A stretch of 47,452 nucleotides of DNA from the NCBI GenBank assembly GCA_026709025.1, contig JAPOTT010000031.1, positions 1 through 47,452 of the forward strand, in the 5' to 3' direction. The translations under genes were made by a program, and so were the position numbers. Of this stretch, positions 36,576-40,134 are shown one piece after another; position 1 is the stretch's first letter, and the number at the start of each line of letters is the position of its first letter. Under the pieces are notes generated by a model. That model saw nothing but the letters and a program-made list of their open reading frames with translations, did not search any database and had not been told where the DNA came from. Source of the DNA: a bacterium (GTDB taxonomy: Bacteria > Actinomycetota > Acidimicrobiia > Acidimicrobiales > Bin134).

Positions 36576-37076
36576 CTAGTTCAATTCTGCTGGGGCCAAG
36601 TAAACCCGACGCTCTGGTTCCACCATTCCCAAATTGTTGATTGCCACTGCCACTACCCGCTCTGGCGCAGAAGCCCGAGCCACGTTTAACCGCAACCTGT
36701 CGTTGATGGCCCGCACCTCTGTGAGTTCTGTGTTAAGCCCATCTAGGTTGGTTTGGCGTTGCACTATCAAGGCTTGCAATGCAGCCACAACAAACAATGC
36801 CGCTAAAACGGTGACCGCAATCACCCAACCCAACTTGGGCGCTAACCGCCGCTTGGGCGCAGCTGCCACACGCAAGTGCGTAGGTTGTTGCCCGACGTGT
36901 ACCGGTTGGACTTGGCTTGCTGGCGCTGCTGAGCCTTGGCGCGTTGAATCTTGACTAGCTGAATCTTGACTAGCTGAGTCTTGGCGCGTTGAATATTGTC
37001 TCGCTGAGGCCGGGCGCGCTGGAGTTGAGCGCGCTGAAGCATTGTTTGCTGGAGCTGGGCGCGCCACCGCAGCCAT
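36576..37076 (-). CDS. ftsL: Divisome protein FtsL with repeat-rich cytoplasmic N-terminus
   Basis: The identification rests on position between rsmH and ftsI and on topology: a cytoplasmic tail, one membrane segment at about residues 83-104 (W-V-I-A-V-T-V-L-A-A-L-F-V-V-A-A-L), then a coiled coil (L-N-T-E-L-T-E-V-R-A-I-N-D-R-L) and a C-terminal segment with I-N-N-L-G-M-V-E-P. FtsL bridges FtsQ and the FtsW/FtsI synthase. The first 75 residues are low-complexity Ser/Gln/Arg/Ala units of five residues. The ATG shares one base with the rsmH stop. Confidence 0.88.
   Translation of the reverse strand: MAAVARPAPANNASARSTPARPASARQYSTRQDSASQDSASQDSTRQGSAAPASQVQPVHVGQQPTHLRVAAAPKRRLAPKLGWVIAVTVLAALFVVAALQALIVQRQTNLDGLNTELTEVRAINDRLRLNVARASAPERVVAVAINNLGMVEPERRVYLAPAELN
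36931..37065 (-). repeat. 15-bp coding tandem repeat, nine degenerate units, in ftsL
   Basis: Units of 15 bp run continuously from 36931 to 37065, for example GAATCTTGACTAGCT twice in succession at 36946-36975. Each encodes five residues such as D-S-A-S-Q. Confidence 0.85.
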
Positions 37077-38059
37077 CAGACAACTCCTGCAAGTTCAGGT
37101 TGCGGCAGCTTTTTAAACGCCCGCAAACGTGCGCTGGAAGATCTTGGGTTGGCCCGCACCTCAGCTTCTGTGGGAGTACGACCACGTTTCTCCAACAACT
37201 CAATTGCGGGAGCAGCTTGGCCAACCCCTTGAGGCAAACCCTGAAAGCGGGCTGGATCGTTCAACCCTGCAAGCTGGCGTAAGGTTGTCTTCACGATGCG
37301 GTCTTCACCACTGTGGTAGCTGATCACCACACCCCGTCCGTCGGGCACAAGGCGGGCAATGGCCTGTTCTAATCCAGGTTGAATCTGAACCAGTTCCTCA
37401 TTCACCGCAATGCGGATTGCTTGAAAGGTGCGCTTGGCTGGATGCCCTCCGGTTCGTCTGGTGGCTGCGGGAATAGCTGCACGAACAACCTCGGCCAACT
37501 CAGCAGTACCCTCTATTGGTCGACAAGCAAATATGGCCTCAGCAATCCTTTTTGCAAAGCGCTCATCCCCATACGCTCTGATAATCCGTGTCAACTCCTC
37601 CACAGGCCAGCCGTTTACAATGCGATCTGCCGACAGCTCTTGGCTGCTGTCCATCCTCATGTCTAGCGGCCCATCTTGGCGATAGCTAAAGCCCCTAGCC
37701 GGGGTGTCTAGCTGTGGTGAGCTAACCCCAAGGTCAAACAGACACCCCGCTAGCTCGCCCACCCCTAAAGCATCTAATGCGTTGCTGGCCTCGCCAAAGC
37801 GGGCCTTTGCCACCGTAGCCCTTGCGCCCATCGTTTTACCCAACAAAGCCCTAGCAGCCGCTACTGCATTCTCATCTTGATCTAGCCCTACCACAGCTAT
37901 GTCGGCTCTCGCTCGCAATAGGGCTTGAGCGTGGCCTGCACCACCTAAGGTGGCATCTAGAATAATGCCCGCAGGAGCTTGGCTCAGACACTCCAACACC
38001 TCCGCTAGCATCACGGGGCGATGAACAAAGCCGCTATCAGGCCCTAAAGGTGCTCCCAT
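37076..38059 (-). CDS. rsmH: 16S rRNA m4C1402 methyltransferase (RsmH/MraW)
   Basis: RsmH methylates N4 of C1402 in 16S rRNA. From ATG 38059 the protein has 327 residues and begins M-G-A-P-L-G-P-D-S-G-F-V-H-R-P-V-M-L. AAGGG lies 6 nt upstream of this ATG; a second ATG at 38065 is possible. SAM-binding features are L-D-A-T-L-G-G-A-G-H, G-L-D-Q-D and L-F-D-L-G-V-S-S-P-Q-L-D, followed by R-G-F-S-Y-R-Q-D-G-P-L-D-M-R-M and S-Y-H-S-G-E-D-R-I-V-K. The open frame continues about 260 codons upstream, through the leader and mraZ, but that part lacks conservation and a ribosome site. Confidence 0.95.
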   Translation of the reverse strand: MGAPLGPDSGFVHRPVMLAEVLECLSQAPAGIILDATLGGAGHAQALLRARADIAVVGLDQDENAVAAARALLGKTMGARATVAKARFGEASNALDALGVGELAGCLFDLGVSSPQLDTPARGFSYRQDGPLDMRMDSSQELSADRIVNGWPVEELTRIIRAYGDERFAKRIAEAIFACRPIEGTAELAEVVRAAIPAATRRTGGHPAKRTFQAIRIAVNEELVQIQPGLEQAIARLVPDGRGVVISYHSGEDRIVKTTLRQLAGLNDPARFQGLPQGVGQAAPAIELLEKRGRTPTEAEVRANPRSSSARLRAFKKLPQPELAGVV

Positions 38060-38378
38060 CAGCATCCCTTGTGGTTCTTCGGATCGTGATTTTTCCTCAT
38101 TGGATTGTTCCCAACTTGGCTTTGTCTGCTGCGACTTAGGGTTGTTTGTCCCTCGACAAGCTGTGATGATGTTGGTCTTTTTTGCGCTTAGCGGCACCAA
38201 TCGATAAGAATGTCGCTGATCAGCAGTCCTTCGCCCGGCGATCGCACTCTGGGATTTTTCCCCATTAGTGTCGATGGTAAGCGGGCGGAGTAGGGGCCTT
38301 CCATCTCGTCGGACGAAGGACTGCCCATCAGCGCTCCTCAACTTCGGTGCTACATCACTACATACAAGTTCATCCACA
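38060..38378 (-). ncRNA. 319-nt mraZ-rsmH gap: candidate structured RNA leader of rsmH
   Basis: This gap between two genes of one operon holds no recognised gene. Its core is a 20-bp inverted repeat with two mismatches (38214-38233 and 38314-38333, built on GCAGTCCTTCG and CGAAGGACTGC) enclosing 80 nt. On the transcribed minus strand the enclosed part holds smaller inverted repeats: GATGG...CCATC, TGGG-N7-CCCA and the palindrome GCGATCGC. A closing stem with several inner hairpins is the plan of a multi-branch RNA. An actinobacterial mraW RNA motif upstream of this same gene is known; whether this is a member needs a covariance search. Confidence 0.55.
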
Positions 38379-38786
38379 TCACAACCACCGATCCATCTTG
38401 GCGTTGCCCATTTGAGACTTAAGCATTTCCCACTGATCCTCATCCCAAACCTCGGCGCGGTTAAAAACCCCGATAAGCGCCACATGCTTACCGATGCCCA
38501 GCTGTTCTCTTTTGATGGCAGACAACGCCAAACGACCCTGAGAATCAAGGGTGGTAAAGTCCAAATTTGCAGAAAACCAACGCTGGTCATCGCTGCTTGC
38601 CTCACCAGAACGAACCGCCTCCTCAAAGCGCTGCGAAGCCTTAAGAGCTTCTTCGGCAGTCCAAATCCCCAAACAGTTCTTGTAGATGCCCACAAAAGCA
38701 CCATCTGTGAGCGCGGAGCGAAAGGCTGGCGGCAAAGAAAGCCGCCCCTTATCGTCAAGAGAGCGCCTATGCTCACCGGTGAGCAC
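38379..38786 (-). CDS. mraZ: Transcriptional regulator MraZ
   Basis: MraZ is an AbrB-like DNA-binding protein that controls its own dcw operon. The 135-residue protein (GTG start, AGGGGAGC upstream) has the two tandem swapped-hairpin repeats with L-D-D-K-G-R-L-S-L-P and L-D-S-Q-G-R-L-A-L, each carrying the D-x-x-G-R core. It is the first gene of the cluster. Upstream lie five GGG triplets at 10-bp spacing, the expected binding site. It is followed by an unusually long 319-nt gap before rsmH. Confidence 0.96.
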   Translation of the reverse strand: MLTGEHRRSLDDKGRLSLPPAFRSALTDGAFVGIYKNCLGIWTAEEALKASQRFEEAVRSGEASSDDQRWFSANLDFTTLDSQGRLALSAIKREQLGIGKHVALIGVFNRAEVWDEDQWEMLKSQMGNAKMDRWL

Positions 38787-39627: not shown

Positions 39628-40134
39628 CTACGCAACTTCAGACGAAGAGCCTAAGTACGGCAGCCAATCTTGAGGCACATGCCCCACCGCCGAAGCCACC
39701 CACGCCGACCGTGGAGGCTCAGCGGGAGGCCGCAACAGCCGCATGTGTGTCTCCGACAGCAAGCGATCTCTTTTAGCAATATTGCAACGCCGACAGGCAG
39801 CCACCACGTTCTCCCAAGAATGCGTGCCGCCGCGACTCTTGGGTTGCACATGATCGATGGAGTCGGCGTAACAACCACAGTACTGACAGCGATACTCATC
39901 GCGCGCAAACACCCCTCGACGGCTGAGCCCGCCAGTTCTGAAAAACGGCACCTTTACGTAGTACAACAAACGCACTACCGAGGGCACGGCCAAGTCCAAG
40001 CGCTCCGAGCGGAACCTATCGTCAGACTCCAAAATCACCTCGGCCTTTTCTGCCAACACCAACACCAGAGCGCGCCGCTGAGCCACAACGCTCAAAGGCT
40101 CATAGCTCGCGTTTAGTACCAGCGCTCGGCTCAT
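39628..40134 (-). CDS. Small HNH endonuclease-family protein
   Basis: The 168-residue protein begins M-S-R-A-L-V-L-N-A-S-Y-E-P-L-S-V-V, typical of a widely conserved actinobacterial HNH family. The C-terminal half carries the zinc and HNH elements: C-Q-Y-C-G, S-I-D-H-V-Q-P-K-S-R-G-G, H-S-W-E-N-V-V-A-A-C-R-R-C-N. It is unrelated to the DUF222 type at the window ends. Its role is not established. It precedes the ligase-fold gene by 4 nt and probably shares its transcript. Confidence 0.88.
   Translation of the reverse strand: MSRALVLNASYEPLSVVAQRRALVLVLAEKAEVILESDDRFRSERLDLAVPSVVRLLYYVKVPFFRTGGLSRRGVFARDEYRCQYCGCYADSIDHVQPKSRGGTHSWENVVAACRRCNIAKRDRLLSETHMRLLRPPAEPPRSAWVASAVGHVPQDWLPYLGSSSEVA

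Follow-up and report, generated by a model that had tools for sequence, protein, structure and literature searches.

A covarying structured RNA between mraZ and rsmH across an actinobacterial class, probably Acidimicrobiia

The 47,452-nucleotide stretch of DNA analyzed here (the window) carries on its minus strand a mraZ gene followed by rsmH (mraW) and by an open reading frame that matches FtsL models at scores under their curated cut-offs (Table 1). The initial annotation had pointed to a 319-nt gap between mraZ and rsmH, and this gap stands: it measures 313-319 nt, depending on which of two in-frame ATG codons (38065 or 38059) starts rsmH, a gene identified by its match to TIGR00006. Just upstream of mraZ, TGGG-type repeats with a period of about 10 nt can be seen by eye (38871-38825, minus strand); these are likely MraZ operator boxes. 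The window also contains an HNH-endonuclease-like open reading frame (39628-40134, minus strand), which hits IscB/Cas9d profiles along no more than a short stretch and at scores far under cut-off.

Within the gap, the minimum free energy fold of the minus strand (38214-38333) is a stable three-way junction composed of a long basal stem (P1) and two arms (P2 and P3). The folding energy is -66.0 kcal/mol (z -7.3), and none of 200 dinucleotide shuffles is as low (mean -38.0, sd 3.8 kcal/mol). A 20-bp inverted repeat with 18 of 20 positions paired had been reported at this site, enclosing smaller inverted repeats of a possible structured RNA. Our analysis bears out both features: 19 of the 20 positions of the arms 38333-38314 and 38233-38214 are paired (18 Watson-Crick pairs and one G-U), and the inner structure is supported by the folding energy and by covariation across many families (see below). 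P1, with 26 pairs, is longer than the repeat first reported. The plus strand of the same interval also folds (z -5.9), as expected since the element is near-palindromic. A covariance model built for the element (R1) matches 38204-38334 of the window, with 126 bits on the transcribed strand versus 32 bits on the complement. The element has a single match in its own genome, which rules out a dispersed repeat or MITE. An intrinsic terminator or attenuator, which would require a run of U after a G+C-rich hairpin, is rejected since no terminator-like site was found on the element.

Table 1. Genes and RNA parts at the mraZ-rsmH locus of the window
Feature	Coordinates	Strand	Evidence or remark
mraZ	38379..38786	-	TIGR00242 75.7 bits, under curated cut-off 98.35; conserved neighbour of the element
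rsmH (mraW), probable start ATG 38065 or 38059	37076..38065	-	TIGR00006 293.9 bits, over cut-off
Whole RNA element, three-way junction P1-P2-P3	38214..38333	-	Fold z -7.3, homologue covariation, model R1
P1 5' strand	38306..38333	-	MFE and consensus structure
P1 3' strand	38214..38241	-	Fold and covariation
Purine-rich GAAGGA within P1 3' strand	38232-38227	-	Counterpart of relatives' Shine-Dalgarno-like run
Codon AUC, not a start here	38218..38220	-	Relatives' rsmH start-codon site (AUG/GUG)
Arm P2, GAUGG.AGGC ... GCUU.CCAUC	38273..38305	-	Fold and covariation
13-nt C-rich P2 loop CCCUACUCCGCCC	38283..38295	-	Core seen in 121/124 elements
Near-invariant P2 loop core CUCCGCCC	38290-38283	-	Core seen in 121/124 elements
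Arm P3	38245..38270	-	Fold; arm missing in two-arm families

Covarying pairs in homologues had been set in advance as the test of a structured RNA, and in an alignment of 32 sequences double compensatory changes occur in 35 of the 41 pairs. The paired fraction of alignment cells is 92.2%, versus 33-48% in slid controls, and the covariation score is 0.501, versus 0.215 for shuffled alignments and 0.08-0.13 for slid structures. In P1, 22 of the 23 pairs have double compensatory changes in alignment A2. G-U pairs are frequent in the aligned elements; this, together with the much higher score of the transcribed strand, places the constraint on the RNA and not on a DNA palindrome.

The element occurs in two forms. 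In 35 of the 124 elements collected (a set that includes a few duplicates from two collections, 120 being distinct), P3 is missing and the RNA forms one long hairpin of 97-106 nt, while most elements are three-armed. The two-arm forms show covariation on their own, in 22 of 31 pairs, with a score of 0.270 versus 0.169 when shuffled. The constant part of both forms is the P2 arm, GGAAGGCCCCU(U)ACUCCGCCCGCUUCC, and 121 of the 124 elements carry the core of its loop, CUCC(G/A)CCC. The P3 loop reads GAAAAAU in the window and GAGA(A/C)AU in most relatives; a consensus of (G/A)GAGA(A/C)A(U/A) is kept in the three-arm forms, although the arm is dispensable. Within most of the genus, visual inspection suggests that the P2 loop could pair with GGGCGGAG of the P1 3' strand; other families lack this pairing, and we treat it as coincidence.

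A DNA search finds the element in 21 of the genus's 22 genomes (a count that includes the genome of the window) and matches it partly in further families belonging to the order. Within the genus the element is 83-92% identical at the nucleotide level, versus roughly 60-65% identity for the adjacent RsmH protein. The covariance model extends this distribution across the class, to at least 171 of 247 genomes, a lower bound set by strict search filters, and to 107 of 124 genera. In a 297-genome sample of the phylum there are no matches outside the class, all 15 genomes with matches being class members. Since close RsmH matches are annotated as Acidimicrobiia, Ilumatobacteraceae and Acidimicrobiaceae, we infer that this class is Acidimicrobiia. 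Across families, every element whose neighbours are present in the retrieved DNA lies between mraZ and rsmH. Several class members that lack a match have almost no mraZ-rsmH gap (loci L060, L283, L285 and L287), which means a true absence of the RNA and makes the element dispensable. In other classes of the phylum (L291, L292, L295, L301, L305 and L307) the gap seems to hold a short open reading frame; by eye, its product has a membrane-like C-terminal stretch and an end near ...MVAIATRALGR.

The relation of the element to the rsmH start codon differs among families. Among the 120 distinct elements, 55 have in the P1 3' strand a start codon from which rsmH is reached in frame without an intervening stop, and 49 of these codons (40 AUG, 8 GUG and 1 UUG) fall at exactly position -16, counted from the end of the element. 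Most of the two-arm forms belong to this group. A G-rich run such as GGGGGGCUG precedes the embedded start codon and could serve as a Shine-Dalgarno sequence, so that both the ribosome-binding site and the start codon of these genes would be contained in a long, G+C-rich helix. In the other 65 elements, among them that of the window, rsmH starts outside P1, and occlusion is thus neither the whole nor a universal story. Throughout the window's genus, the window included, the corresponding site reads AUG, AUA or AUC, none of them the rsmH start. A conserved leader-peptide reading frame starting in P1 was considered for this genus and rejected, since several members have AUC or AUA in place of its AUG. 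Judged from the sequences, direct occlusion of the rsmH start is a well-supported prediction for about half of the class; in the window, the start lies about 140 nt 3' of the element. The suggestion that rsmH may be tuned separately from mraZ is plausible, and it gains a better footing from those other families in which the stem contains the rsmH start codon.

The closest known RNA is the mraW RNA motif (RF01746), a cis-regulatory RNA of Actinomycetales (PMC2864571), and the element had been proposed to be a member of that family or a divergent relative. The searches do not support membership: the RF01746 covariance model does not match the element even at E <= 10 or the two-arm forms at E <= 5, and it yields no score over the gathering threshold in 14 related loci and none over the cut-off in 41 relatives (membership threshold >= 50 bits). 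The positive control C. glutamicum does score, as do 7 of the 150 genomes taken from the phylum. Conversely, model R1 has no convincing match in mraW loci; its two weak matches (E 0.005 and 0.24) are aligned via the outer stem alone, with most of the arms skipped. The two RNAs are alike in that both precede mraW (rsmH), are about 100 nt long and carry a conserved C-rich loop at the tip of a long hairpin. However, the loop is ACUUCCCC in mraW RNA and ACUCCGCCC in the element; mraW RNA is one long bulged hairpin, whereas the element is a three-way junction in most members; and mraW RNA occurs in Actinomycetales, in families of the phylum other than those with the element, whereas the element is matched only within the window's class. 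Transcription of the two may differ too, as RNA-seq in Corynebacterium detected a 5' end near or within the mraW motif (PMC3890552). We read the two RNAs as analogues, each lifting a C-rich loop on a long stem before rsmH; the idea of a relative thus survives with respect to place, target gene and C-rich hairpin, but not with respect to homology. The literature searched gave no description of an RNA at the mraZ-rsmH gap in Acidimicrobiia, which is weak evidence of absence. The element is, in our assessment, a genuine class-wide structured RNA that lacks a match in Rfam 15 and was previously uncatalogued.

What might such an RNA do? The most likely reading, to which we give an even chance, is that the element is a class-specific cis-regulatory RNA that controls rsmH via a ribosome-binding site that is either hidden or processed, and that the P2 loop is a docking site. 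The element would be transcribed within the mraZ-rsmH intercistronic gap, where P1 would conceal the ribosome-binding site of rsmH. The P2 loop would be read by a trans-acting factor, probably a protein, which would set whether P1 stays closed or is opened or cut. The length of P1 would suffice for an RNase III substrate; given the high stability of this stem, it is difficult to picture a ligand simply driving it open. In this way the output of RsmH, and perhaps also of the downstream division genes, could be set apart from that of MraZ. In the window's genus, where the rsmH start has moved downstream, control would operate by processing, stability or translational coupling and not by direct occlusion.

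Several other functions can be weighed against the same observations. In RNase III-processed intercistronic or leader stems, a long conserved double-stranded stem lies beside the ribosome-binding site. P1 could be a plain cut site of this kind, splitting the mraZ mRNA from the rsmH-ftsL-ftsI messenger and freeing the rsmH ribosome-binding site. The long stem is shared with those systems, and stems of at least 20 pairs are maintained by compensatory change in every family; moreover, given the gene order, the cut would separate exactly two cistrons whose needs differ, and cleavage would also work with a start codon downstream. What a cut site leaves unexplained is the near-invariant P2 loop, a feature of the element and not of such stems, and the high sequence conservation within the genus, and we consider this function unlikely, if the strongest of the alternatives. 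Alternatively, the RNA could be excised from the operon as a trans-acting small RNA whose C-rich P2 loop would pair with the G-rich Shine-Dalgarno sequences of other messengers: an unpaired CUCC/CCC stretch is exposed amid an otherwise fully paired, stable RNA, and there is one copy per genome. The strict linkage to rsmH and the start codons in the stem favor a cis role, however, which makes a small RNA improbable. Finally, most members form a three-way junction and have two conserved terminal loops, as might a metabolite-binding riboswitch, but about a quarter of the members lack P3, the junction is not conserved and conservation is concentrated in one terminal loop, so that a riboswitch seems very improbable.

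A further alternative is autogenous control by rRNA mimicry, in which free RsmH would bind its own messenger via the P2 loop and repress it. Autogenous ribosomal-protein leaders mimic the rRNA site of the protein they encode, and here the P2 loop ACUCCGCCCG is identical at 9 of 10 positions to ACACCGCCCG of 16S rRNA (positions 1396-1405), a segment that includes C1402, the base methylated by RsmH. The comparison uses the 16S rRNA of relatives (locus L279), the window's own assembly containing none; in that locus CCGCCCG occurs once, and the C1402 site is the best 10-mer match to the loop. The gene immediately downstream of the element encodes the enzyme of this very site. Compared with the known leaders, however, the possible mimicry is short and statistically weak: between 1 and 8% of shuffles equal the similarity at the site (p 0.01-0.08), about 40% equal it somewhere in 16S rRNA, and the longer P2 arm has no significant 16S similarity, so that mimicry beyond the 10-mer is rejected. 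The final G of the loop is missing in one subgroup, and the internal G or a nearby C is changed in five elements. Also, RsmH is an enzyme reported to require the assembled 30S subunit and not to act on free 16S rRNA (PMC5053481), and METTL15, its mitochondrial orthologue, shows no sequence specificity, its contacts being with the RNA backbone (PMC10828496). The likeness of the loop to the C1402 target is suggestive only, and autogenous repression ranks behind an RNase III site as a rather doubtful account. More doubtful again is that the loop acts as a decoy of the C1402 site, such that RsmH would recognize or even methylate its own messenger and set its own level; if true, a decoy feedback loop would link ribosome modification to the division operon across the whole class.

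The reading we prefer, a cis-acting RNA that controls rsmH through its ribosome-binding site, concerns one of the most conserved operons in bacteria. The presence of long hairpins with C-rich loops before rsmH suggests that such a structure was placed there by each of several actinobacterial lineages, which would imply that RsmH dosage (methylation of 16S C1402), or the coupling of RsmH to cell division, needs a control of its own.
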